The position numbers were made by a program, and so were the translations under genes. This document shows, piece by piece, positions 49,971 through 64,000 of a stretch of 64,000 nucleotides of DNA (positions are counted from its first letter, which is position 1; every line of letters starts with the position of its first letter). The notes below the pieces were generated by a model. The model was not told the DNA's origin. It searched no databases and worked only from the letters and a program-made list of their open reading frames with translations. The DNA is from Methylovulum sp. (GTDB lineage Bacteria > Pseudomonadota > Gammaproteobacteria > Methylococcales > Methylomonadaceae). The DNA lies in assembly GCF_028687615.1 (NCBI RefSeq), contig NZ_JAQTZU010000003.1, positions 62,001 through 126,000 on the forward strand, in the 5' to 3' direction.

Positions 49971-50285
49971 ATGACCCTAAACGAAATCCTCAAAGACTCT
50001 AACCGCTTCGCCATTTTGTCAGAAAAGGAAGAACCGCTGGTTATACAAAAAGGCGATGTGCTGATAAACGGCACCGGCGTAGGGACGATTGGGCGTTCAG
50101 CCTGTTATTTGCATGAGCAAAACGCGCTGCCCGATAATCACGTCACCATTTTAAGAACGGACAAAATCAATCCGATTTTTTTATCGGTTTATCTAAATTC
50201 CATTGCCGGAAAATATCAGGTTGATAAATACTTTAAAGGTTCATCAGGCCAAATTGAGATTTATCCAAAAGACATAGAGAATTTT
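49971..50285 (+). pseudogene. HsdS-like type I specificity subunit fragment
   Basis: The first 105 codons (start 49971) read like the end of a target-recognition domain: LVIQKGDVLINGTGVGTIGR, ALPDNHVTILRTDKINPIFL, KYQVDKYFKGSSGQIEIYPK and DIENF. These are characteristic of HsdS and related recognition proteins. At 50286 it meets a 136-bp inverted-repeat element. The open frame continues to 50516, but the residues after DIENF do not resemble the family. No hsdM or hsdR is adjacent. Confidence 0.6.
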
Positions 50286-50421
50286 GGTAGTCCTGCAATC
50301 GGAATGATTTGTAAAAAGTCAAGCTTACCGATTTATTGGCTCGAATGCCCGTACTTCAAGGCGTACAGTCATCGCAATATTTTTTTGACAAATCTATTAT
50401 CATTCCGATTGCAGGACTACC
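50286..50421. mobile_element. 136-bp inverted-repeat (MITE-like) element
   Basis: GGTAGTCCTGCAATCGGAAT.. at 50286-50308 and its perfect 23-bp reverse complement at 50399-50421. If it is removed, the reading frame before it runs on uninterrupted into the frame after it (to 50601). No clear target duplication is visible. Confidence 0.6.
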
Positions 50422-50601
50422 GAAAACTGTATTGCCGATGCCTCAGAACACACTGCTCATGGCCGTTTCCTAATCTTGCACTGGCAATCCGGTACAACCA
50501 TTACTTTGCGTTTTGACCAAGGCGTAAGCTATTGGGCTTGTGCTGACAAATCGTCTATTTATTTTGACAACACAAGCTATTGGCAAAAGAAGAATATTTA
50601 A
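50422..50601 (+). pseudogene. C-terminal fragment, helicase-like (uncertain)
   Basis: An open frame without its own start reads ENCIADASEHTAHGRFLILH, then WQSGTTITLRFDQGVSYWAC, and ends at a TAA (50599-50601). The LRFDQGVSYW-type pattern reminds me of the extreme C-terminus of large DEAD/DEAH helicase-like defence proteins, but I cannot name the family. Together with the HsdS-like fragment upstream this looks like remains of a defence locus. Confidence 0.4.
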
Positions 50602-50681
50602 AAACAAGCAGAATGTTTTCACTATAAACATCGCTGTGTTCAATCCCGTGCATGAAATTTCCAGTTAATGGCAATAGTGGC

Positions 50682-50722
50682 AAACCCAGCCAGGTTTTAA
50701 AACCTGGCTGGGTTTTTTTCTA
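50682..50722. terminator. AGGTTTTAAAACCT-core palindrome, copy 2, terminator-like
   Basis: AAACCCAGCCAGGTTTT plus its exact reverse complement (50682-50715), then more T on the plus strand. It lies just after the ftsH stop (minus strand) and may terminate transcription from both sides. The core is shared with palindromes at 48891 and 56112. Confidence 0.65.
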
Positions 50723-52648
50723 TCAAAACAACGCCAGAAACTCCTCGCGTTGCACCACTTCTTTTTCCTGCAACAAAGCCGCCAGCCTGTCCAAAATGTC
50801 GCGGTTTTCGCTGATGATTTCATGGGCGCGATGCTCGCCTTCGCTGATTAAGGCCATGATTTCGGTGTCCAATATCCGCGCGGTTTCGTCACTGTAGTTA
50901 CGGTATTCGGAGATTTCGCTGTCCAGAAATTGCAGTTGTTGGCGTTTGCCGTAAGTCAATGCGCCCATGCGTTTGCTCATGCCCAGGCTACAAACCATGC
51001 TGCGGGCAATGTCGCTGGCTTTTTCCAAGTCGTTTTGCGCACCTGTGGAGACGTTGCCCAAGGCGATCCGCTCGGCGATGCGCCCACCCAGCAAAATGGC
51101 GATTTGGTCTTTCAGCTCGTTTTCTGTCAGTAAAAACTTTTCTTCTATCGGCAATTGCAGGGTGAATCCCAAAGCCGATACGCCGCGTGGAATGATGGAT
51201 ATTTTGTGTACCGGTTGGCCTGTCGGTATTTTTTCGGCGATCAACGCATGTCCGGCTTCATGATAGGCGACTCGGCGTTTTTCCTCGGTGTTTAAGGTGC
51301 GGTTTTTCTTTTCCGGGCCTGCCAGTATCCGGTCTATCGCCGCTTCAAAATCCGTCATTTCGATCTGTTTGTGATCCAGGCGCGTGGCGATGATGGCGGC
51401 TTCGTTGGCGATGTTGGCCAAATCTGCACCGACCAGGCCGGGTGTGCGTTTGGCGATGACGGTGGCGTCAATATCAGCAGCCAAAGTCATGGCTTTGATA
51501 TGCAATTTGAGAATTTCGATACGGTCTTGCAAATCCGGTTTATCGACGATGATCTGACGGTCAAAACGGCCGGAACGCAACAAGGCTTTGTCGAGGATTT
51601 CCGGGCGGTTGGTTGCCGCCATGACGATCACGCCGACTGAGGTGTCGAAACCGTCCATTTCGGTCAGCAATTGGTTGAGGGTTTGTTCCCGCTCATCATG
51701 GCTGCCCATCACGTTCGGGCCGCTGCGTGAGCGGCCTATCGCGTCCAGTTCGTCGATAAAAATGATGCACGGGGCTTTGCCACGCGCTTGTTCAAACAAC
51801 TCACGCACCCGCGCCGCGCCGACACCGACAAATAGTTCGATAAATTCAGAACCGCTGATATTAAAAAAGGGTACGCCCGCTTCTCCAGCCACGGCACGGG
51901 CCAACAGGGTTTTGCCGGTTCCAGGAGGGCCGACCAGCAACACGCCTTTGGGCATGTGCCCGCCCAATTTGTGGATTTTGTCCGGCGTTTTTAAAAAGTC
52001 TATCGCTTCTTTGAGTTCTTGTTTGGCACTGTCCGCACCGGCGACATCATTAAATGTCACTTTCGGTAATGAATCGGGGTGGATCTGGCCTTTGTTGCCT
52101 AGGTTCAAAATACCGCGTTGCATCCCGGAGCTGCGGCGCATCATCCATGACCAGATCGCCACTAACAGTAAAATTGGCAAGACCCAGTTCAGGAAAAAAT
52201 TGACCAGCCAGTTTTCGCCGCTTCTGACCACATAATCGACGTTGTTTTCTTGCAGCAGCTTCGCCAAATCCGTTTGCCACAAGGGCACGGTCAAAAACTG
52301 TTGCGGCTGGGCGTTGGCCTTATCCGGCTTGATAGTGCCGGAAATAAAGCGTTCGGTGACAATGGCTTTGTCAATTTTTGCCGATTTGACATCATTTAAG
52401 AATTGGCTATAGGAAATTTCCCGGCCCTCCATTGTGTTGCTGGTATTGAAAATCACCAAAACTACGATAAAAAGCGCGATAAAAGCGAATAATCGTTTTG
52501 GGTTGGGAGGGGTATCGTCTGGTGGGGTTTTATTGGGGCGTTCAATGGCTTTGCCGAAAAAATCCAGCAGCATTTCCAGCCATTGTTTTAGGGTTTGGTA
52601 AATCTTGCCCAACAGACTGGCAAAGCCGCCATTTGTATTTTTATTCAT
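50723..52648 (-). CDS. ftsH: ATP-dependent zinc metalloprotease FtsH
   Basis: A 641-residue membrane AAA protease. Two transmembrane helices ([15 protein letters not shown] and [19 protein letters not shown]) surround a periplasmic domain. The AAA module has Walker A GPPGTGKT (240-247), Walker B ([12 protein letters not shown]) and SRH ([20 protein letters not shown]). The zinc motif HEAGH is at 463-467. It degrades membrane and short-lived soluble proteins. The ATG at 52646-52648 has GAGAGGCAG upstream; a 62-residue longer frame lacks support. An extra ~45-residue N-terminal stretch ([20 protein letters not shown]..) precedes helix 1, unlike housekeeping FtsH, so this may be a second, specialised copy. 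Confidence 0.93.
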
Positions 52649-52936
52649 AAACTGCCTCTCCCGTAGTAAACAAACGATGATAGAAGTTAAAGCCACATGG
52701 GTATTTTGCCGCCCTGACGATATAGGGCTTATGAGAAAACAACATTTATATATCTTCTTGACTATACCCGCCGCAAGCAAGCTGGACAAGCGATATTGGT
52801 TTGGCAAGCATTTAAACTGAAATGGAATTATCAACTAAACCCCCTGTTCTCAATCCCGTTTGTGCAACACATATCATCGCAATGGTAAAAAATGCTAAAA
52901 TCAACGGCTTAATTATTTTTCTGGTTGCCTTGATTC
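52649..52936. other. Divergent intergenic region ftsH / Lon-like
   Basis: 288 bp between two divergent AAA protease genes. TGCTAAAAT at about 52893-52901 could be an extended -10 for the Lon-like gene. I see no clear heat-shock (sigma32) promoter. Confidence 0.35.
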
Positions 52937-55327
52937 ATGCCCAATACCCAAAAACTGCCTGTCACCTCGTTAAAACTGAACGTCGATCTGGACGGTTTTG
53001 ATTTTCCTGACCCACCGCTTTGTCCCCCCAATATTTTAGGCCAAGCCAGGGCAAGGTCGGCATTGGAATTTGGCATTGCCATGCCCCAGTCTGGTTATCA
53101 TGTTTTTGTCATGGGGGAACCGGGCATGGGGCGGTTGACGATGATCAACCAACAGTTGGATAAGGTGGCGGCAACCTTGCCGACGCCGGCTTCTTACGCT
53201 TACGCCCATAACTTTGAAAATCCTAGGGAGCCTATAGCGATAGCTTTACCGGCTGAATACGGGCAATTGTTCGGCAAAGACATTGAAAAATTATTGGATG
53301 GCCTGCTGGAAATTTTTCCGGTCGCATTTGAAAGCCCGGCGTATCAGCAAAAAAAGACCGCCATCGAACGCCAATTCAATCAGAATTATCAACAGGCGAT
53401 TGATAGTGTCGATAAAAAAGCCAGGGCTATGAGCATCGCACTGTTCCGTGAAGATGACAATATCACCTTTGCGCCCATCCACGGCAACAAAACCCTCAAT
53501 GAAAAACAATTCAGCCAATTGCCGGAGGCGGAGCGTGAAATGTTTCACTGCCAAGTCGAAGAGCTGGAAGATTTTCTAAGCGAAGTGCTGCTGGAAATGC
53601 CGTTGTGGCGGCGGCAAGTGTTGGAAAAAATCAAGCAACTGGACAATGACACCATCAAGCAAGAACTCCAGCCCTTGTTTATCGAACTCCACGATAAATA
53701 TCTCGCCATTGATGATGTCATCAGCTATTTATCCGCCTTGGAGCAACAACTGTACACCACCATCTGCGATGAACTAATGCCCACGCGGACATCGGATTCA
53801 CTCAGCCATGCCGCTAAACGCGCCCGCTTGTTTGAGCAATTCGCGCCGAATATCCTGGTCGACCATTCGCAAGACAGCGGTGCGCCCGTGGTTTATCAAG
53901 CCCATCCGACTTACCAAAACCTGTTCGGACGCATTGAATACGCCAGCGAACAAGGTATGTGGGTCACGCATTACCAGCGGATTTGCAAAGGTTCGTTGCA
54001 TAAGGCCAACGGCGGTTATTTGATCCTCGATGCCGAAAAGCTGTTGGAATATCCGTTTGTTTGGGACGCGCTGAAACGGGCGTTAAAGTCCGGCACTATC
54101 GACATTGAATCGCCGTATTCGGAAATGGGCATCAGCACGATGACCTTAAGACCGGAATTGATCCCGCTGAATGTCAAAATCATCCTGGTTGGTTCCGGCG
54201 ATATTTATTATTTGCTGGAAGAGCTGGATAACGAATTCAATGAAATGTTTAAAGTGCTGGCGGATTTTGATTATGAAATTCCGATTACACCCGAATCCAT
54301 GCAACATTTCGCGATATTGGCGAACAAGCACGCCGCTGATTCCGGCGTAAAACTGTTGACCAAGGCGGCGATTGCCAGTTTGATGGAACACAGTTGCCGG
54401 CTTGCCGAAAATCAGCACCGCTTCTCGGCACATATCAATGACTCGCTCGAACTCATCGGCGAAGCCAGCCTGTTTGCCAAACAAGCCGCTAGCGGACAAC
54501 TAGAGCGCATCCATATTGAACAAGCCTTGGCGGCCCGCGAATACCGCAATGGCGGGCTCTCGCAACGCATTCTCGAAGACATGCTGGACGGCACGATTTT
54601 GATCGATACCCACGGCGAAGCGATAGGCAAAATCAATGGCTTGACGGTGCTGACTATCGGTGGCAGCAGTTTCGGCGCCCCCGCCCGCATCACCACCACC
54701 GTTTATCCAGGCTCACGCGGCATCGTCGATATTGAACGCGAAGCCGAATTGGGCGAGGCGATACATTCCAAAGGCGTGATGATTTTGACGGGCTATTTGG
54801 GGCATTTTTATGCCCAGCAATTCCCGTTGGCGATTTCCGCCAGCATCGCCATCGAACAATCGTACAGCGCGATAGACGGCGATAGCGCGTCACTCGCCGA
54901 GTTGTGCTGCCTGATTTCCGCGCTGACCCGTATCCCGATCAAGCAAGCCTTTGCCGTGACGGGTTCGATCAACCAATACGGCGAAGTGCAGGCCATCGGC
55001 GGCGTCAATGAAAAAATCGAAGGCTTTTTCAGATTATGCCAAATGCGCGGTTTGACCGGAGAGCAAGCCGTCATTATCCCGGCGGTAAACAAACGCAACC
55101 TGATGTTGAAACAGGATGTGATTGATGCCGTGGCGCAAGGCTTGTTTACGGTTTACACTGTCAACAGCGTCGATGAAACGCTGGAATTATTGACCGGACA
55201 CCTGGCGGGAGAAGCCGATGCGGAGGGTAATTACCCAGAAAACAGCATCAACTTCAAGGCCATTTCACGGTTGAAAGAAATTTCAGAAATGGCGGGGGAT
55301 GATGAACATAAGGAAGAGGGATGTTGA
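52937..55327 (+). CDS. Lon-like ATP-dependent protease (AAA_32/LonB-like)
   Basis: A 796-residue protein with an N-terminal AAA-type domain (PNILGQARARSALEFGIAMP; P-loop VMGEPGMGRLTMI, where Arg replaces the usual Lys, as in this family), a long helical insert (EAEREMFHCQVEELEDFLSE), and a C-terminal Lon protease domain with the Ser650 (GDSASLAELC) and Lys693 (VNEKIEGFF) dyad, 43 residues apart as in Lon. Homologues are annotated as Lon-related or YcaL/YcbZ-type proteases. The acidic C-terminus (EMAGDDEHKEEGC) is not part of the fold. Cytoplasmic; targets unknown. Divergent from ftsH. Confidence 0.88.
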   Translation: MPNTQKLPVTSLKLNVDLDGFDFPDPPLCPPNILGQARARSALEFGIAMPQSGYHVFVMGEPGMGRLTMINQQLDKVAATLPTPASYAYAHNFENPREPIAIALPAEYGQLFGKDIEKLLDGLLEIFPVAFESPAYQQKKTAIERQFNQNYQQAIDSVDKKARAMSIALFREDDNITFAPIHGNKTLNEKQFSQLPEAEREMFHCQVEELEDFLSEVLLEMPLWRRQVLEKIKQLDNDTIKQELQPLFIELHDKYLAIDDVISYLSALEQQLYTTICDELMPTRTSDSLSHAAKRARLFEQFAPNILVDHSQDSGAPVVYQAHPTYQNLFGRIEYASEQGMWVTHYQRICKGSLHKANGGYLILDAEKLLEYPFVWDALKRALKSGTIDIESPYSEMGISTMTLRPELIPLNVKIILVGSGDIYYLLEELDNEFNEMFKVLADFDYEIPITPESMQHFAILANKHAADSGVKLLTKAAIASLMEHSCRLAENQHRFSAHINDSLELIGEASLFAKQAASGQLERIHIEQALAAREYRNGGLSQRILEDMLDGTILIDTHGEAIGKINGLTVLTIGGSSFGAPARITTTVYPGSRGIVDIEREAELGEAIHSKGVMILTGYLGHFYAQQFPLAISASIAIEQSYSAIDGDSASLAELCCLISALTRIPIKQAFAVTGSINQYGEVQAIGGVNEKIEGFFRLCQMRGLTGEQAVIIPAVNKRNLMLKQDVIDAVAQGLFTVYTVNSVDETLELLTGHLAGEADAEGNYPENSINFKAISRLKEISEMAGDDEHKEEGC

Positions 55328-55450
55328 TGTTTTTATGTTGGAATTGGAGCTTTGGGGTTTTGAAGCTGTTCAACTGGCTTCAAGGAATTCCCGCACAATC
55401 CACGTCTGCCGCTATAATGCAAAATCCCTGATACAGCAACGAGGTGGCCC

Positions 55451-56056
55451 ATGTCTGCCGTAATCCAACAAACAAGCTACACCGCCGAAGAATATTTAAC
55501 GCTGGAACGTAACGCGCCCTATAAAAGCGAGTTCCACAATGGACAAATTTTTGCCATGACCGGAGCCAGCCGCAAGCATAATTTGGTTTCGATAAATATT
55601 GCTGCGGAATTGCGTAGCCAACTCAAAAAACGCCCCTGCGAAGCCTACATCAATGACATGCGGGTCAAAGCTGCTGAAATGCGTAGTTATTATTACCCAG
55701 ACATTGCGGTTGTTTGTGGGGTCGCGCGATTCGAGGACAATATGCTCGATACGCTATTGAATCCGACGGTGGTGATCGAAGTGTTGTCGCCTTCCACCGA
55801 AGCTTATGACCGTGGCGGCAAATTTAGTCATTACCGTAAAATTGCTAGCTTGCGCGAGTATTTGCTGGTGGCGCAAGACCAGCCGATTATCGAGTGTTTT
55901 ACGCGGCAGGAAAACGGCTGGGTGTTGACGGAAACAACGGGGCTTGATGCGGTTGTGAAACTGGCAAGCATTGATTGCTCGCTGAGTTTGCGCGAAGTTT
56001 ACGATAAGGTGCTGGATGATATGGCAGATGGGCGGAGCGTTGATCAGGCGTCATAA
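55451..56056 (+). CDS. Uma2 family (DUF820) endonuclease-like protein
   Basis: A 201-residue Uma2 protein: YTAEEYLTLERNAPYKSEFH, NGQIFAMTGASRKHNLVSIN, YYYPDIAVVCG, NPTVVIEVLSPSTEAYDRGG and REYLLVAQDQPIIECF. The core (PDIAVVCG, VIEVLSPSTE, Lys in KFSHYRKI) is intact. GAGG lies before the ATG. It belongs to a different Uma2 subgroup from the genes at 44070 and 48999. Role unknown. A MITE lies 18 bp downstream. Confidence 0.88.
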   Translation: MSAVIQQTSYTAEEYLTLERNAPYKSEFHNGQIFAMTGASRKHNLVSINIAAELRSQLKKRPCEAYINDMRVKAAEMRSYYYPDIAVVCGVARFEDNMLDTLLNPTVVIEVLSPSTEAYDRGGKFSHYRKIASLREYLLVAQDQPIIECFTRQENGWVLTETTGLDAVVKLASIDCSLSLREVYDKVLDDMADGRSVDQAS

Positions 56057-56074
56057 CCCGCAATAGTAAGCGAG

Positions 56075-56198
56075 GGCTACCAACTTAAGGCGGGACAAAA
56101 AGACCTGATCTAGAGCTGTCAGGTTTTTAAAACCTGACAGCTCTAAAGTCCTGCGAGTAATTGGGAAGTTACCTCTGCCCCGCCTTAAGTTGGTAGCC
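56075..56198. mobile_element. 124-bp MITE with 20-bp inverted ends and 8-bp target duplication
   Basis: GGCTACCAACTTAAGGCGGG (56075-56094) is the exact reverse complement of 56179-56198. TAAGCGAG occurs directly before (56067-56074) and directly after (56199-56206), an 8-bp target duplication. There is no transposase, so it is a non-autonomous element. The AGGTTTTAAAACCT-core palindrome copy 3 is nested in its centre. Confidence 0.88.
56112..56144. repeat. AGGTTTTAAAACCT-core palindrome, copy 3
   Basis: AGAGCTGTCAGGTTTT, one T, then the exact reverse complement. It shares its core with the palindromes at 48891 and 50682 but has different arms, and is nested within the MITE. Confidence 0.88.
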
Positions 56199-56377
56199 TA
56201 AGCGAGTGGATACAAGCCCGTATGGGGGGGGTATGGAATACGGGATTTTTCAGTGCTGATATGTCGTGTTTCATTGTTTTTCGCGTGTTTTGGGGAATTG
56301 CATGTTGTGCGGCTTCGACCCCCGTATTCCGCTACCGCTGCATACGGGCTACTGGCTGAACTTATTTTCGATTAAAC

Positions 56378-56414
56378 AAAAGCCTCGGTTGCTTTCAACA
56401 ACCGAGGCTTTTTT
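56378..56414. terminator. Bidirectional terminator hairpin
   Basis: AAAGCCTCGGTTG pairs with CAACCGAGGCTTT, with a T-run on the plus strand and an A-run before it, so it can act for the minus-strand barrel gene as well. Confidence 0.75.
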
Positions 56415-56451
56415 GTTCAAATCGGATGGGATTAAAGTGTCTATTCTAAAA

Positions 56452-57225
56452 TCACAAATCAAAATGGGCAGCCAAACCGAAAATCAACTGGTGGTTGACC
56501 GTTTCGGTGTTGATTGTGCCGCCGCCTTTCAGGTCATCTTCAACATCGACATAAGTCAATTTATATTCGGCAAAAGCCGAGACATATTTGATTAAATCAT
56601 AATTGACGCCCATCATGCCATTGATGACAGGGCCGGCACCCCACTGATATTCGTAAGTTTGGGTTCCGTTAATCACAGCTTCGACATGAGGGACGCTAAA
56701 GCCCGCTCCCAAACCGGTATACAACTGCATACGGCCTAACAAGGTGTTGTCACGTTGACCTGCTGGAAACCAACGGTATTGGCCGTTAAAGGTCAAGGTG
56801 TTGACGCCATGTGACATGTTAAAGTCCTGGATGTGGTTGCTAATTGGCTCTACGCCATTGACGGGATTGCCATTCAAATCCGTGCCGTTGATTTGCGCAT
56901 TATTGTCATAGTTCAGATAGTTTTTAAGATGGGCAAAGTCTATGGACAAACCCCAATTGGGCGCATCATCAAACCAATAACCCAAGCGTGCCCCGTAAAA
57001 TACGGGTTCTTCAAAAGAATTGTCTTCCCAGCTCACATCGCTGAAATTCAGGTTGGTTTTGCCCTGCGTCAAATTCAAATCACCATTATCAATGAATGAT
57101 TGTCCTGCATAGATGGCAACATTGATTTCGGCACTTGCTAAAGATGTCACTAACAACCCGGTCAGCAGTGTAAGCATTTTTATTCTGGTGGGTACGCCTC
57201 TGGCAATTGCTGTCTTTTGCTTCAT
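56452..57225 (-). CDS. Outer-membrane beta-barrel protein
   Basis: A 257-residue protein with a signal peptide (IKMLTLLTGLLVTSLASA) and alternating amphipathic strands rich in aromatic residues: FYGARLGYWFDD, WGLSIDFAHLKNYL, LYTGLGAGFSVPHV, VSAFAEYKLTYVDVEDDL and a last strand NHQLIFGLAAHFDL. This matches small 8-stranded barrels of the OmpW/OmpA-like or lipid-A-modifying type; I cannot pin the subfamily. No catalytic pattern is obvious. Single gene between terminator hairpins. Confidence 0.72.
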   Translation of the reverse strand: MKQKTAIARGVPTRIKMLTLLTGLLVTSLASAEINVAIYAGQSFIDNGDLNLTQGKTNLNFSDVSWEDNSFEEPVFYGARLGYWFDDAPNWGLSIDFAHLKNYLNYDNNAQINGTDLNGNPVNGVEPISNHIQDFNMSHGVNTLTFNGQYRWFPAGQRDNTLLGRMQLYTGLGAGFSVPHVEAVINGTQTYEYQWGAGPVINGMMGVNYDLIKYVSAFAEYKLTYVDVEDDLKGGGTINTETVNHQLIFGLAAHFDL

Positions 57226-57352
57226 TTTTATAGATTTCCTGTGCTGGTTAAGACAAACTCAAAATACGCATGGGTGATTGTTTTTGAGCCGGTAAAAATG
57301 CTTACCTTACCATTTTTGGGCTATTTTTGGCAAAGATTGCGTTAGCAATTGC

Positions 57353-58864
57353 TTAAGTGCTTCTGTCCAATTTACGGTAACTGATGGCTTCACTTAAATG
57401 AGGGATTTGAATTTGCGGTGATTGCGCGAGGTCGGCAATAGTGCGGGCGAGTTTTAAAATGCGGTGATAGGCGCGGTTTGATAAGCCAAATTTGTCCATT
57501 GCCTGCTCCAGTAAACGGTGTCCGGCTTCGGGCAATTCGCAGACGATTTTGACTTCTTTCGCGCTCAAGGCCGAATTGGCTTTGCCGGAACGCGCCAAGG
57601 CAATATTGCGTGCCGCCACCACCCGCGCCCGAATCGCCGCACTGCTTTCTTCGCCCGTCGCCGAACCTTTACGCAAGACTTCATGCGGCACATGCGGCAC
57701 TTCCAGGTGCATGTCGATACGGTCTAGCAAGGGGCCTGAAATCCGTCCGCGATAACGGGCGACTTGCTCGGATGTGCAATGGCAACGGCCTGACGCATCG
57801 CCCAAATAGCCGCAAGGGCAAGGGTTCATCGCCGCAACCAATTGGAAACGCGCGGGAAAATCGGCTTGGCGGTTGGCGCGGGAAATGGTGATGTGTCCGG
57901 TTTCCAAGGGTTCGCGCAAAACTTCCAAGACTTTGCGGTCAAATTCCGGCAGTTCATCCAAAAATAACGTGCCGTTATGCGCAAGCGAGATTTCCCCAGG
58001 TTTAGGATTGCTGCCGCCACCCACCAAGGCCGCCGCCGACGCGGTGTGATGGGGTGAGCGAAACGGCGGTTTCAGCCAATTATTGACATTAAAGCCTTGG
58101 TCGCTAATCGATGCAATCGCGGCGGTTTCCTGCGCCTGTTGTTCGGTCAACAACGGCAAAATCGTCGGCAAACGCGAGGCGATCATGGATTTGCCCGTAC
58201 CCGGCGGGCCTAGCATCAAGATGTTATGTGAACCCGCCGCGGCAATCTCAAACGCGCGTTTGACGTGGTATTGCCCATGCACATCGGCAAAATCCAATTC
58301 ATGCAGCGTCGGTTCGGGTTCGGTTTGTTGGCTTTGCATGTCGATTTGCGTCTGCCCGCTCAAATGCGCACAGATTTGCAATAAATGCTCGGCGGGGATA
58401 ATCTCCAAGCCCTTCACTAAGGCCGCTTCGGCGGTGTTTTCCTTAGGCACAATCAGTTTCCGCCCCTGCTTACGCGCTTGCAACGCAACCGGCAACACGC
58501 CGATGACAGGCCGCAATTCCCCGCCTAAGGACAATTCGCCGATACATTCATATTCCGCCAACCGCGCGGTGGGAATCTGCCCCGAAGCCGCCAAAATGCC
58601 TAGCGCGATGGCTAAGTCAAAACGCCCGCCTTCTTTCGGCAAATCAGCAGGGGCGAGGTTGATGGTGATGCGCTGCATCGGAAAATCAAACTGCGAATTT
58701 AGCAAGGCCCCGCGCACCCTGTCTTTGCTTTCCTTCACCGCCGTTTCGGGCAAACCGACGATGGACAAAGCAGGCAAACCATTGGAGACATGCACTTCGA
58801 CGGTGACGAGCGGCGCGTCAATACCGGAACGGCCCCGGCTGTAGATGACGGCTAGGGATGACAT
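57353..58864 (-). CDS. comM: YifB/ComM family Mg-chelatase-like AAA+ ATPase
   Basis: A 503-residue protein. N-terminal ChlI-like domain (VTVEVHVSNGLPALSIVGLP, FPMQRITINLAPADLPKEGG), AAA+ core with Walker A (LGPPGTGKSMIASRLP), Walker B-type LFLDELPEFDRKVLEVLREP and sensor MNPCPCGYLGD, and a C-terminal Mg-chelatase subunit domain (LSNRAYHRILKLARTIADLA). ComM is a hexameric helicase that promotes branch migration during natural transformation. The whole length and all motifs are present. Confidence 0.92.
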   Translation of the reverse strand: MSSLAVIYSRGRSGIDAPLVTVEVHVSNGLPALSIVGLPETAVKESKDRVRGALLNSQFDFPMQRITINLAPADLPKEGGRFDLAIALGILAASGQIPTARLAEYECIGELSLGGELRPVIGVLPVALQARKQGRKLIVPKENTAEAALVKGLEIIPAEHLLQICAHLSGQTQIDMQSQQTEPEPTLHELDFADVHGQYHVKRAFEIAAAGSHNILMLGPPGTGKSMIASRLPTILPLLTEQQAQETAAIASISDQGFNVNNWLKPPFRSPHHTASAAALVGGGSNPKPGEISLAHNGTLFLDELPEFDRKVLEVLREPLETGHITISRANRQADFPARFQLVAAMNPCPCGYLGDASGRCHCTSEQVARYRGRISGPLLDRIDMHLEVPHVPHEVLRKGSATGEESSAAIRARVVAARNIALARSGKANSALSAKEVKIVCELPEAGHRLLEQAMDKFGLSNRAYHRILKLARTIADLAQSPQIQIPHLSEAISYRKLDRST

Positions 58865-59008
58865 AAGGACGCGGGAAAACTGGCAAGCATATTAATTTTC
58901 ATAGACTTAGACGGGTGTTATATTGTCATTGCTATACGTAAATTGTATTGGCATTTATTATAGGTCAGGTAAAAGATTATAGCTGTAACGAAGCCATTGG
59001 AGAGAGCT

Positions 59009-59215
59009 ATGCACGGTCAACAATTATTACAGGAAATAGAGGTTTTACCGCCGGAATTACAAAAACAAGTGTCCGATTTCGTCATTTTTCTACGCAAACA
59101 GCAACAACAGCAATTCATCCAAAAACGGACGGTAGGCGAATATAAGGAAACTATCGTCATTCATGATGATTTTGACGAACCCTTGGCTGATGATTTCTGG
59201 TTGGGCGGACAATGA
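59009..59215 (+). CDS. DUF2281 family antitoxin-like protein
   Basis: A 68-residue protein: MHGQQLLQEIEVLPPELQKQ, VSDFVIFLRKQQQQQ, then an acidic tail (HDDFDEPLADDFW). This is the DUF2281 pattern, common as the antitoxin next to PIN-domain toxins. GAGAGAGCT precedes the ATG at 59009. The end overlaps the PIN gene (ATGA). Confidence 0.82.
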   Translation: MHGQQLLQEIEVLPPELQKQVSDFVIFLRKQQQQQFIQKRTVGEYKETIVIHDDFDEPLADDFWLGGQ

Positions 59216-59604
59216 ATATCCTGCTCGATACCCATGTGTTCTTATGGCTGAGGACAGAACCTGAAAAAATCCCAGAACAGGTGTTGGCAGCGTATTACGA
59301 CATAAACAACGATGTCTATTTAAGCCTTGCCAGCATTTGGGAAATGCAAATCAAGCATCAGTTGGGAAAACTTGATTTGGAAGTGCCGCTTAAAGACATG
59401 ATTGAAAAACAGCGTGCCAATAATGGCTTGCAGATTTTATCTGTCGAACCTCGCCATATTTATGGCTTGGCAGAGCTGCCTTTCCATCATAAAGACCCTT
59501 TTGATAGGATAATTTTAATCCAAGCAAAATTAGACGGTTTGGAGCTTGCTACTGCGGATACCGCTTTTTGCCATTATGGTGTTAATTTGTTTTGGGATTC
59601 CTGA
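59212..59604 (+). CDS. PIN-domain toxin, VapC-like
   Basis: A 130-residue PIN ribonuclease: LLDTHVFLWL (first Asp), SLASIWEMQIKHQLGKL (Glu), HHKDPFDRIILIQAK (Asp pair) and LATADTAF (last Asp). All acidic residues of the active site are present. Such toxins cleave RNA and are held by the partner antitoxin, here the DUF2281 protein overlapping by 4 bases. Complete and probably functional, unlike the broken toxin at 1677. Confidence 0.88.
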   Translation: MNILLDTHVFLWLRTEPEKIPEQVLAAYYDINNDVYLSLASIWEMQIKHQLGKLDLEVPLKDMIEKQRANNGLQILSVEPRHIYGLAELPFHHKDPFDRIILIQAKLDGLELATADTAFCHYGVNLFWDS

Positions 59605-59635
59605 GTTAAATAAAACTTATCCAGAATAATTTGAT

Positions 59636-60511
59636 TTACATCTTCTCCCGCAATTTCAAAAACCGCTGATACCTTGTCAGCGCAATATCCCCTTGTTCTG
59701 CCGCCGCCCTGACCGCACAACCCTTGTCCGAAACATGGCTGCAATCATTAAATCGGCATCCGTCCAATAAAGGCTGGAATTCGCGGTAGCCATGAGCCAG
59801 TTGATTATGGTTCATGTCGGCGAGGCCAAAAATCGCCACGCCTGGGCTGTCGATCAAATCGCCGCCGTCGGGCAAATGGTACAAAGTCGCGGCGGTGGTG
59901 GTGTGCCGTCCGTGTTTGGTGGTGGCGGAAATGGTGTTGGTTTTGAGTTCCTTATCGGGAATCAGCGCGTTAGTCAGCGAGGATTTGCCGACCCCGGATT
60001 GTCCGGTGAATATGCTGGTTTGCTGGTTCAGGGCCTGTTTCAAATCGTCCAGGCCATTGGCGGTGGTCGCACTGACGCGGTGCAAAGGATAGCCCAGTTC
60101 TTGGTAAATGCTAAGTTCCTGTTCGATGTCCGGCGAAGGCGGCAAGTCGGTTTTGTTCAGCACTAAAGCCGCGCTAAAGTCGTGGTTTTCGCAAATCGCC
60201 AAATATTGGTCCAGCAATAAAAAATCACAAAACGGTTCGGTGGCGAACACGACAAACACGGTGTCGATATTGGCGGCGACGGGGCGGGCTTTGTCGCCCC
60301 GGCTGGGGCGCAGCAGCACCGAGCGGCGAGGGAGAATTTCTTCGATGCGGCCTTGTAACAAGCCAGCTTCTGATAACAGCACTTGATCGCCGACCGCGAC
60401 GGTGTCCACTTTCCGTCGCGTTTGGCAGAGCCAGATAATGCCGTTGACTTCTACGGCGATACCTTGACCTAAGTGGGCGATGACCAGACCTTGACACAAG
60501 TCCGCAGCCAT
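59636..60511 (-). CDS. rsgA: Ribosome small subunit-dependent GTPase RsgA
   Basis: A 291-residue circularly permuted GTPase: OB domain (GIAVEVNGIIWLCQTRRKVD), G4 (VLNKTDL), G1 (FTGQSGVGKSSLTNALIP), G2 region (TTKHGRHTTTAATLYHL), G3 (DSPGV) and a C-terminal zinc site (CRFNDCSHVSDKGCAVRAA). It helps mature the 30S subunit. It overlaps the M48 protease stop by one base and is co-transcribed with it. Confidence 0.95.
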   Translation of the reverse strand: MAADLCQGLVIAHLGQGIAVEVNGIIWLCQTRRKVDTVAVGDQVLLSEAGLLQGRIEEILPRRSVLLRPSRGDKARPVAANIDTVFVVFATEPFCDFLLLDQYLAICENHDFSAALVLNKTDLPPSPDIEQELSIYQELGYPLHRVSATTANGLDDLKQALNQQTSIFTGQSGVGKSSLTNALIPDKELKTNTISATTKHGRHTTTAATLYHLPDGGDLIDSPGVAIFGLADMNHNQLAHGYREFQPLLDGCRFNDCSHVSDKGCAVRAAAEQGDIALTRYQRFLKLREKM

Positions 60512-61758
60512 CAGGCTTTGGCAATCAGATGGGCGATGCGGATGGCCGCTGGCGGATGGCTGTAGTGGAAGGCGGAATACAAGGGATCGGGGGTCAAGGT
60601 GCTGGCATTTTCTTCGTATAATTTCACCAAACCGCTGATCATTTTGCTGGCTTGGGAATTTTGCGCGGCGAAATCGTCGGCTTCAAATTCAAACTGGCGT
60701 TGGAAAAACGCCGTGATCGGCTGCATGAAAAAGGTGAACGTCGATGATACCAGCATGAACAACATCAATGCGGCGGCGTTGGATTTTTGTTCAATGCTGA
60801 CACCCAGGCCCGTGTAAAACCAGTCTTGGTCGATTAACCAGCCTAACACGGCAAAACCAATCAGGCTCATGATAGCACTGGCGATGAGCATTTTAATGAC
60901 GTGTTTACGTTTGAAATGTCCTAACTCATGCGCCAACACCGCTTCCAATTCTTCTTCATCTAAAGAATTGACCAAGTTGTCATAAAACACGATGCGTTTG
61001 TTATTGCCCAAGCCCGTGAAATAAGCGTTGCCGTGACCGGAGCGTTTCGAACCATCCATGATGAAAATGCCCTGGCTGTTGAATCCGCAACGTGCCAACA
61101 GGTTTTGGATGCGGTCTTTCAGTGAACCGTCTTCCATCGGCGTGAATTTGTTGAACAGCGGCGCGATCAGGGTGGGGAACAGCCAGCTCATCAATAAGGA
61201 AAAACCCATCAAAATCGCCCATGCCCACAGCCACCAGGACGAACCGATGCTGTCCATGACCCACAAAATCAATGCCAGTAAAGGCAAGCCGATTGCCGCA
61301 CCTAAGGCTAGTTGCAGGGCTTGGTCTTTGGCAAATTGTTGGATGGTGCTTTTATTAAAACCGAATTGCTCTTCAATGACAAAAGTCTGGTAGAGGCTGG
61401 TGGGGATTTCAACCAGCATCATGATTAGAAACACGGATGCCGTTGCCAGCAAACCTGCCAGGATGGGCGAATCGAGCATTTGTGACCAGCAAGAAAAAGC
61501 CAGATTGATACCGCCGCCCAAAGTCAGCAATAGCAACACGGCTACGCCGACAATCCGGTCAACATCGCCCAGCTTGCCTTTTGCCAAGGTATAATCGGCG
61601 GCTTTTTGGTGTGCATCTAAAGAGACGCTGGCGAGGAAAGCTTCCGGCACTTCGCCACGATGCGCGGCAACATGGTTGGCCTGGCGTTTTGCCAGCCAAA
61701 ATTCAATGCCAAACGATAAGATTAAGGCGATCAAAAAAAACAGCGTGAAGGTATTCAT
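60511..61758 (-). CDS. M48 family metallopeptidase (Ste24/CAAX-protease-like)
   Basis: A 415-residue membrane zinc protease. Several transmembrane helices ([56 protein letters not shown]), HELGH in [14 protein letters not shown], and the downstream Glu-containing [10 protein letters not shown]. It also shows [20 protein letters not shown], typical of Ste24-like proteins. Bacterial members take part in membrane protein quality control. The ATG at 61756-61758 is chosen; the TTG four codons upstream is unlikely. Confidence 0.88.
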
Positions 61759-61844
61759 ACGGGCAAACAAGTCAGGTTGGAGGGTTAGACGTTCAGTGTA
61801 CCCAATGCTACACTAAGCGCAATAGCAAACACAACGGAATCGAC

Positions 61845-62390
61845 ATGGCGCAGGAACCCCAAAACCTTATCTGGATAGACTTGGAAATGACCGGGCTGAA
61901 TCCCGACACCGACCTTATCATTGAAATGGCGACGATAGTCACCGACAAAGAACTTAATATCTTGGCGCAAGGCCCGGTCATCGCCGTACACCAGTCAGAT
62001 GAAGCGTTGGCGGCAATGGATGACTGGAACCAAAAACACCACGGCGAATCCGGCTTGATTGAGCGGGTCAAAGCATCGGTTATTAATGATGCCGAAGCTG
62101 AGGCCATGACGATTGAATTTCTTAAAGAATGGCTTCCTGAACGGACATCACCTATGTGCGGCAACACGATAGGCCAAGACCGCCGCTTTTTAGCCCGCTA
62201 CATGCCCCAACTGGAAGCGTTTTTCCATTACCGTAGCATTGATGTGTCCACTTTGAAAGAATTGGCGGCGCGTTGGGCACCAGAACTTAAGCAAGGCTTC
62301 AATAAACAAGCCAAGCACCAGGCCCTGGACGACATCATCGAATCCATAGAAGAATTGCGTTATTACCGGACGCATTTTCTTAAATACTAG
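61845..62390 (+). CDS. orn: Oligoribonuclease
   Basis: A 181-residue DEDDh exonuclease: [20 protein letters not shown] (DxE), [11 protein letters not shown] (Asp in the second motif), and [19 protein letters not shown] (H..D). It degrades 2-5 nt RNAs and the pGpG product of c-di-GMP turnover. Divergent from the M48/rsgA unit; crcB follows after 2 bp. Confidence 0.95.
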
Positions 62391-62392
62391 CC

Positions 62393-63109
62393 ATGAACCA
62401 ACTGTTCGCCGTCGCGCTGGGCGGGTCTTTTGGGGCTGTGCTGCGGTTCTTGGTTTCTACAGGAGTCTATCACTGGCTAGGGCGAGGCTTCCCTTATGGC
62501 ACGTTGGTGGTCAATGTCTTAGGTTCGTTTTTGCTGGGTTTGCTGACTGAGGCATTGGTGTTAAACCGCATTGCTTTTGCCTTGGATTACCGCGCGGCGA
62601 TTCTGGTGGGTTTTATCGGCGCGTTCACCACCTTTTCGACATTTTCCCTAGAAACCGTTTATCTGCTGGAACAAAACCAATTCAGCAAGGCGGCGTTGAA
62701 TATTGCGGTCAATGTCGTAGCGTGCCTGTTGGCGATTTGGCTGGGTTTGTTATGTGGCAAGGCTTTGGCGGGTAAGGCCATTGTTTGGGCGGGTGGGATA
62801 TTCCCGTATGGCATCATTATCGTCAATGTCCTTGGCGCCTTGTTGATCAGCTCGGTTTCCAGCTTGTTATTGCTGAAAGTGCCGATGGCTATTGAACAGC
62901 AACTAACTTTGGTTATTGTTATGGCCTTTGCGTATTTGGGATTGTCCGGTTTATACGTTTTGCTGCATCTATTGGAGCATGGCTATTCATATTCCACGCA
63001 TGAGCGTCTTTTGATGTTTAGTTTTGCGGCCAACACCTTTGCTTGTCTACTGGTGATGTGGCTAGGTTGGTTGGCGGTCAAGCCGTTAACAAATTTTTGT
63101 AATTCGTAG
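62393..63109 (+). CDS. crcB: Fused double FluC/CrcB fluoride channel, 4+3 helices
   Basis: 238 residues against about 125 in ordinary FluC. Half 1 (1-125) is complete: [29 protein letters not shown] (pore Asn) and [20 protein letters not shown] (Na site and Phe box). Half 2 repeats the domain from its second helix: [19 protein letters not shown], then [19 protein letters not shown] in place of the Phe-box helix, then [20 protein letters not shown]. The first helix of half 2 is absent, giving seven helices, so half 2 should face the opposite way, as in FluC dimers. Exports fluoride. No fluoride riboswitch is seen upstream. Confidence 0.85.
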
Positions 63110-63158
63110 GGGATATACTCTACGGCTACTGTATACATTCAATCTACAAAAGGTAACT

Positions 63159-64000
63159 ATGCTAGACCTCCGTTTATTCAGAACCGAACTTGATTTTGTC
63201 ACGCAACAATTGCAACGCCGTAATTTTGCGTTTGATGCCAGTGCGTATGAAGCCTTGGAAAACCAGCGCAAGGCTATTCAAGTCAAAACTCAAGACCTGC
63301 AAAATGAGCGTAACAGCCGCTCGAAAGCGATAGGTCAAGCCAAGGCTAAAGGTGAAGACGTGCAGCCCTTGCTCGATCAAGTCCAACACTTGGGTGACGA
63401 GCTGAAAGCTGCTGAAAACGCATTGGCGGACATCCAAACGGCGATGACGGCTTTGCTGGAAGGCATTCCCAATATTCTTGACGAGGCCGTGCCGGATGGC
63501 AAAGACGAGGAATCGAATCTGGAAATCAGCCGTTGGGGTGAACAACCGAATTTTGATTTTACGCCAAAAGACCATGTGGATTTGGGTACAAGCAAAGGCA
63601 TGGAATTTGAACTGGGCGTAAAAATCGCCGGTAGCCGTTTTGTCGTGCTGAACGGGCCGCTGGCGCGTTTGCAACGGGCGATTATCCAGTTGATGCTGGA
63701 CACGCACACGGCTGAGCATGGCTATTCTGAAACCTATGTGCCGTTTTTGGTCAACGCCGATAGCCTGTATGGCACAGGGCAATTGCCAAAATTCGCCGCT
63801 GATTTGTTCAAGGCTAGCGAAGATCCCGCTTTGTATTTGATCCCGACCGCCGAAGTGCCGGTCACCAACATCGTCCGTGACACGATTATCGAAGCGAAAG
63901 AGCTGCCGTTGAAATTTGTTTGCCACAGCCCTTGTTTCCGTAGCGAAGCGGGTGCGTATGGGCGCGATGTGCGCGGCATGATCCGCCAGCATCAGTTTGA
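63159..64000 (+). CDS. serS: Seryl-tRNA synthetase (N-terminal ~280 residues, runs off window)
   Basis: The translation from ATG 63159 starts [20 protein letters not shown], an N-terminal coiled-coil arm ([20 protein letters not shown] to [13 protein letters not shown]), then the class II catalytic core ([45 protein letters not shown]; motif 2 [20 protein letters not shown]). It charges tRNA-Ser. The frame is open to the edge, with motif 3 outside the window. AAAGGT upstream is a modest ribosome-binding site. Confidence 0.96.

Follow-up and report, generated by a model that had tools for sequence, protein, structure and literature searches.

A bacterial CrcB/Fluc protein with a complete four-helix domain and a second, three-helix repeat predicted to be inverted in the same chain

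The window analysed here, a stretch of 64,000 nucleotides, contains on its plus strand an open reading frame (62393-63109; ATG at 62393, stop at 63107-63109, 238 aa) in which a complete Fluc domain (D1) is followed by a second Fluc repeat (D2) that lacks the first transmembrane helix and that, by helix count, should lie inverted relative to D1. No other PF02537 match was found in this genome of 3.49 Mb (E up to 0.001), and the two domains are encoded by one ORF rather than by the two adjacent crcB genes of a heterodimeric Fluc pair. The features of the gene are as follows.

62393..63109, + strand: CDS, two-domain CrcB/Fluc protein, 238 aa plus stop
62393..62767, + strand: D1, complete Fluc domain, residues 1-125; its end coincides with the end of most single-domain relatives
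62396..62479, + strand: TM1, residues 2-29, without counterpart in D2 (AlphaFold2 model; alignment)
62498..62563, + strand: TM2, residues 36-57, with T37 and N41 (AlphaFold2 model)
62582..62671, + strand: TM3, broken helix, residues 64-79 and 86-93, TTFSTF motif with F81 and F84 (AlphaFold2 model)
62681..62767, + strand: TM4, residues 97-125, with N103, N107 and C111 (AlphaFold2 model)
62768..63106, + strand: D2, second Fluc repeat without TM1, predicted from helix count to be inverted relative to D1 (alignment, model, conservation)
62768..62806, + strand: junction, residues 126-138, equivalent to D1 residues 22-34 (last part of TM1 plus the TM1-TM2 loop); modelled as a strand pair, no transmembrane helix
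62807..62878, + strand: TM2′, residues 139-162, with N145 (AlphaFold2 model)
62891..62977, + strand: TM3′, residues 167-195, unbroken in the model; Phe-box positions occupied by L184 and L187; also S185 and Y188
63002..63103, + strand: TM4′, residues 204-237, with N214, C218 and W223 (AlphaFold2 model)

Membership of the Fluc/CrcB family is carried by D1. The whole protein scored 101.6 bits against the Pfam CRCB profile PF02537 (cut-off 32.9), with the best stretch at residues 6-119, and 99.5 bits against TIGR00494 (cut-off 80.45). The 16 solved sequences that matched were all Fluc entries, with their best stretches inside residues 3-121. Searching with the AlphaFold2 model, Foldseek aligned Fluc chains over ∼125 columns (TMt ∼0.80, TMq 0.45), among them the Fluc-Ec2 chain 5a43_A (TMt 0.80). 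The single-domain relatives end at residue 125 in 41 of 71 rows and at 123-128 or beyond in the others; these 71 ‘single’ rows include two pieces (L023/L035) of one copy in genome G015 that is broken by assembly Ns, one of the pieces being a D2 fragment. The TM3 motif GxTTFSTFxxE is present in D1 and absent from D2. Prokaryotic Fluc proteins have been described as chains of 120–130 aa with four helices (PMC3755343); the window protein instead has the four helices of D1 and the three of D2 in one chain.

The second half is recognisable as a Fluc repeat from which the beginning has been removed. D2 alone (residues 120-238) scored 15.1 bits against PF02537, under the cut-off, and its alignment begins at profile position 24 and runs to position 103 of 103, so that the start of the profile is missing from the second half. 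When the D2 profile was compared with the D1 profile by hhalign, using the first 73 fused proteins (the set also used for the single-row ends and the charge bias, whereas later counts refer to 151), the two matched with 99.7% probability, D2 residue 126 falling on D1 residue 22 and the alignment continuing to residue 232. D2 therefore lacks only TM1. Identity between D1 and D2 is 31 of 93 aligned columns in the window protein, with a median of 35% (range 15–46%) across the 151 members. The layout can thus be read as [1-125][22-125]. The simplest origin would be one partial tandem duplication, in which codons 22-125 (∼104 codons) were copied once and in frame within a normal single-domain crcB gene, with no need of a separate gene fusion; a fusion of two genes that afterwards lost TM1 would leave an indistinguishable layout. 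Lacking TM1, such a copy would insert in the orientation opposite to that of D1 and would need no linker helix.

The original prediction was of a 4+3 arrangement with an inverted second half and without the linker helix of the eukaryotic FEX proteins, and had named an eighth helix as the finding that would overturn it. The AlphaFold2 model of the window protein, built on 49 sequences (pLDDT 87.6, pTM 0.73), has TM1-4, a short strand pair and then three helices, seven in total with no eighth; TM3 is broken as in Fluc and TM3′ is continuous. A divergent member from Methylomonas was also modelled with seven helices and an unbroken TM3′, and with a helical junction, at a pTM of only 0.56. Neither model has an extra helix. 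The junction, counted from residue 125 through 138, is 14–18 residues long in all 151 proteins, and in every one of them the stretch 122-139 contains at least six residues of a broad set of polar or helix-breaking residues. Since D1 has four helices and the junction is of this length, D2 should be inverted relative to D1, as had been foreseen. The Kyte-Doolittle helix count (14 segments) was too crude for use.

The two-domain layout is not confined to the window. It was found in 151 distinct proteins of 226–244 aa, 110 of them exactly 235 aa long. The fused proteins that were read came from 143 genomes, 7 named loci and 9 further genomes. By family-level group, 104 belong to f1, two each to f2 and f3, 30 to f4, one to f5 and five to f6, six groups in all, with seven more from named records. 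We take the order to be Methylococcales, because Candidatus Methylobacter titanis, Methylomonas methanica, Methylocucumis oryzae and a Bathymodiolus symbiont are among the named carriers. In two other groups of the order, f7 and f8, the few rows contained single-domain CrcB (2 and 1 rows, respectively; 5 and 2 genomes), as did the remaining Gammaproteobacteria that were read. Within the genus of G209, 36 of 37 genomes matched the query, 34 of them over its whole length, G203 in two pieces and G220 over D1 only. The 276 matches among 311 genomes are no proof of fusion, the D2 query also matching D1; of the 35 genomes without a match, two (G212 and G228) proved to hold diverged fused copies. Assembly Ns break one copy (G015), and contig ends cut the loci L042 and L055. 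In a tree of D1 with 79 rows, from which the two G015 pieces were left out, a single branch separated the 43 fused rows from all others (SH-aLRT 86, from a quick search on few columns), compatible with a possible single origin of the fused form. Two genomes carry additional copies: G058 (f6) has two different fused crcB genes close by on opposite strands (L147 2534-3256, +, and 3562-4407, −), and G016 has a second, broken crcB copy (L158 1869-2500) besides its intact fused one.

Both domains are kept in 152 of the genomes read (143 + 9 further), against three in which D2 has been reduced or lost. None of these three has any other CrcB match.

L323 644-1123: G057, D1 and ∼one further helix
L309 278-676: G087, D1 only
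L316 387-750: G220, D1 only

This distribution bears on whether the frame could be a sequencing or assembly error joining two neighbouring crcB genes, the other finding that had been named as fatal to the prediction. Such a false case does exist elsewhere: in G719, two adjacent crcB ORFs parted by a stop (L308 389-1255) look fused if stops are read through. Nothing in the window points to an error of this kind, and the near-constant length and shared layout of the 151 proteins, some of them from one-contig genomes (G019, G213), exclude both a read error and coincidence for the window gene.

We also searched for fusions outside the order. Among 150 genomes of the phylum searched with the PF02537 profile (139 matched), there was no true two-domain frame, G719 being the sole apparent case. 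This search misses the D2 of the window protein itself (one match, frame 241), and diverged second halves would escape it. The other strong phylum rows with open frames of at least 200, G798 and 18 more, were therefore read as well; in the 18, the tails beyond the domain were 5–14 residues long and none reached 60 (0/18). In the class, where 299 of 369 genomes matched and about half of the matches were listed, those outside the order among the matches listed end at ∼residues 121-144, extending past 127 only via a read-through stop. Two genomes of the class with long stop-free frames, G456 and G488, were read and both are single-domain. The NCBIfam model NF002454 (270 positions) was considered as a second bacterial CrcB-CrcB fusion and rejected, because the protein that matches its second half is DUF302 (L322 292-825); the model seems to describe a CrcB-DUF302 fusion.

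D2 is under purifying selection and is probably used. Across 41 independent close pairs, dN/dS had a median of 0.058 for D1 and 0.114 for D2, and the D2 value was below 0.5 in every pair, low enough to suggest that the domain has a function. Conservation along D2 followed that of the single-domain family in the true register (Spearman 0.45), compared with −0.04 to 0.29 when the alignment was slid by 1–6 positions either way. Core-equivalent D2 positions were better conserved than the rest (p ∼1e-4 for all 151), the difference being marginal in f4 alone (p 0.05). The best-kept D2 sites, with their D1 equivalents, include G179 (G76), G225 (G118), P138 (P34), N214 (S107) and S185 (S82), as well as E195. 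That D2 is instead a non-functional relic still awaiting loss would fit a dN/dS above that of D1 in 36 of the 41 pairs, the loss of pore motifs, and the erosion or disappearance of the domain in G057, G087 and G220. However, a median dN/dS of 0.11, conservation patterned on the Fluc core and retention in 152 genomes against three losses all argue against a relic, which we regard as very unlikely.

We then compared the pore residues of the two halves. In D1, R18, T37, N41, T79, T80, F81, S82 and F84 are present in 151 of 151 proteins and N103 in 150, and position 87 is Glu or Asp in all 151. The pore asparagine within the VNVLG stretch was predicted to be kept in the second half, and it is found in both halves of the window protein, as N41 and N145. 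Across the family N145 occurs in 112 of 151 proteins, and it has been lost from all 30 members of f4; N214 (134/151) and Tyr or Trp at position 188 (133/151) are also widely retained. The predicted loss of the Phe box from D2 is likewise evident, with F81 and F84 of D1 replaced by L184 and L187 in the window protein. At position 184, 101 of the 151 proteins have Leu and 15 have Phe; at position 187 the corresponding numbers are 130 and 6. A loss of the Na-site sequence had also been claimed. The TTFST stretch of D1 reads LGLSG in the D2 of the window protein, but most members keep T183 (101/151) and S185 (132/151), so the Na-site of D2 has been lost in part and not wholly. The D2 equivalent of Thr39 is mostly Leu, Ile or Met (113/151), and the equivalent of Glu88 has been lost.

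In Fluc, the two domains contribute one Phe each to every pore (PMC4969038). With Leu at both Phe positions of D2, each of the two intramolecular pores would therefore be short of one Phe, and the proposal that only one of the two works is supported only in part: the loss of the D2 Phe box is as described, but by these rules it would affect both pores. A single complete pore would be left only in the 15 proteins that retain Phe184, or if the conserved Tyr/Trp188 takes over its role. In Fluc-Ec2, F80L and F83L are inactive and F80M is active (PMC5636608, Last et al. 2017), Tyr and Trp at position 80 are inactive, and Ser84 is placed in the pore from the TM3 of the partner (PMC5636608). In the hhalign register position 188 is the equivalent of this Ser84, about one turn further along the helix, and Tyr/Trp188 is a candidate stand-in for the Phe80 group missing at L184 in the D1-based pore. 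The residue is aromatic in 15 of 15 sequences with F184 and in 118 of 136 without it. Of the 18 exceptions, 15 belong to f4, where half of the members (15/30) have no aromatic residue at either 184 or 188. Position 85 of D1, where Ser would line the D2-based pore, holds Ala in 36 of 151 fused proteins (22 of these in f4) and in one of 71 single-domain rows, a slight sign of relaxation at that pore; the S84A change is harmless in Fluc-Ec2 (PMC5636608).

Taking together the inversion expected from helix parity, the conservation of D2 at Fluc-core positions and its wide retention, we favour an intramolecular antiparallel fluoride channel in which the D1-based pore conducts, and consider this an even call. 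The chain would fold on itself, with D2 packing against D1 like the antiparallel partner in a Fluc dimer. Fluoride would pass through the D1-based pore (T37, N41, F84, E87, N103 and the TM4 track), and the D2-based pore would be degenerate. The Phe contributed by the partner (Phe80 in Ec2) is Leu184 in most members, and the pore may tolerate Leu or use the nearby Tyr/Trp188. The known chemistry speaks against this: with F80L and F83L dead in Ec2, conduction would not be expected of a D1-D2 channel that has Leu at 184 and 187. Further points against it are that D2 has been reduced or lost in G057, G087 and G220, and that in f4 the aromatics are often missing and the core pattern is marginal. 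In addition, F81 would face the degenerate pore, yet it is invariant in the 151 proteins, unlike the Phe residues of the degenerate FEX pore, which drift.

The invariance of F81 points to another possible assembly, in which two seven-helix chains insert in opposite orientations and D1 pairs with D1 as a classic Fluc homodimer with two complete pores, D2 serving as an accessory packing or stabilising domain. The original prediction did not include this arrangement, which we treat as a serious rival while judging it rather unlikely. The canonical pore and Na-site residues, F81 included, are complete in D1 alone in 151 of 151 proteins, and three lineages (G057, G087, G220) get by with D1 while their D2 is reduced or gone. 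In TM1, G11 is present in 150 of 151 fused proteins and G14 and R18 in all 151, similar to the single-domain rows (71/71 each). At A15, however, Ser occurs in 19 of 151 fused proteins compared with 3 of the 71 single-domain rows, a faint hint of relaxation at the position aligned with Ec2 C16, which makes a TM1-TM1′ contact (PMC8315801). The homodimer requires dual insertion and hence a near-zero bias of Lys and Arg in the loops, and the bias lies between −2 and +1 in 71 of 73 fused proteins (mean −0.96, compared with +1.0 for the 71 single rows); a near-zero bias is expected of any inverted repeat, and the measure failed to decide between the assembly models. Against the homodimer, D2 is under selection and is conserved at Fluc-core positions and not on a new surface, and tethering should favour pairing within the chain.

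The invariance of both F81 and F84 (151/151) would also be explained if D1 paired with D2 and both pores worked with half a Phe box, one Phe from D1 and one Leu from D2, under a relaxed chemistry. The retention of the polar residues N145 (112/151) and N214 (134/151), and of L187 itself (130/151), is in keeping with this. It is set against the Leu, Ile or Met that mostly replaces Thr39 in D2 and the loss of the Glu88 equivalent, given that T39V and T39A (PMC8315801) and F83L (PMC5636608) are reported as inactive in Fluc, and against the absence of N145 from all of f4. Two working pores of this kind seem highly improbable, and the D1-D2 channel conducting through its D1-based pore remains the reading that we prefer.

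Compared with a bacterial Fluc homodimer (Fluc-Ec2, Fluc-Bpe), D1 is a full member, with a PF02537 score over the cut-off and the TTFSTF motif; the difference is that the window protein adds a second, three-helix repeat, inverted by parity, to the same chain. The descriptions of bacterial Fluc in PMC3755343 and PMC11139923 are of single four-helix subunits or gene pairs. Eukaryotic FEX shares with the window protein two homologous Fluc domains in one chain, antiparallel in FEX and predicted to be so in the window protein, and an asymmetric decay of pore residues (PMC5417652). FEX, however, has a linker helix between two four-helix domains, whereas the window protein has no linker transmembrane helix and its D2 has no TM1. 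The decay is also differently arranged: FEX keeps its Phe residues pore by pore, those of the degenerate pore drifting (PMC5417652), whereas in the bacterial form, found in one order, decay is by domain, with both Phe kept in D1 and both lost from D2 of the window protein (Phe184 is kept in 15 of 151 members). Heterodimeric Fluc pairs of the La1/La2 type resemble it in having two diverged partners, and in the La and Sa pairs one of the four Phe positions is occupied by Leu or Met (PMC5636608), but they are encoded by two genes with one subunit each. Engineered Fluc concatemers (Laf-TM; WT/WT Ec2) show that antiparallel domains in a single chain work as a channel (PMC3755343, PMC4969038). They were joined through a glycophorin A linker helix, where the natural protein drops a helix instead. 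The natural D2 has lost both Phe of one domain, a class of change that the concatemer authors could not test (PMC4969038).

In the literature searched, coverage of which was partial so that an earlier mention is possible, we found no description of a bacterial Fluc with a 4+3 form. A bacterial order appears to have fused the antiparallel pair by omitting one helix, an outcome achievable by a single partial duplication; a review calls EmrE, which has an even number of helices, evolutionarily frustrated (PMC3962082). The natural double loss of Phe from one domain is also informative about how strictly the Phe box is required. A fuller scenario, in which a one-step partial duplication of TM2-TM4 gave a self-inverted single-chain channel whose D1-based pore uses a relocated Tyr/Trp188 instead of Phe80, is doubtful as a whole and is put forward tentatively.

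The genes on either side of the two-domain crcB lie on the same strand.

61845..62390, + strand: upstream neighbour, RNase_T exonuclease (Pfam domain test)
63159..63998, + strand: downstream neighbour, seryl-tRNA synthetase serS, running past the window end (Pfam domain test)

The upstream gene is presumably orn, judging by likeness. A search of window positions 50000-64000 gave no match to the fluoride riboswitch and two weak chance matches to other families. In relatives, a DUF190 gene is frequent between crcB and serS (e.g. L309); it is missing from this position in the window. The idea that D2 replaces this DUF190 neighbour was dropped, since among loci with enough flank, and with the domain checked by Pfam, DUF190 is found downstream at 42 of 85 fused loci and at 46 of 92 single-domain ones. 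Further upstream in the window, at 58997-59604, are two small overlapping ORFs with DUF2281 and PIN domains, an arrangement that to us resembles a toxin-antitoxin pair.
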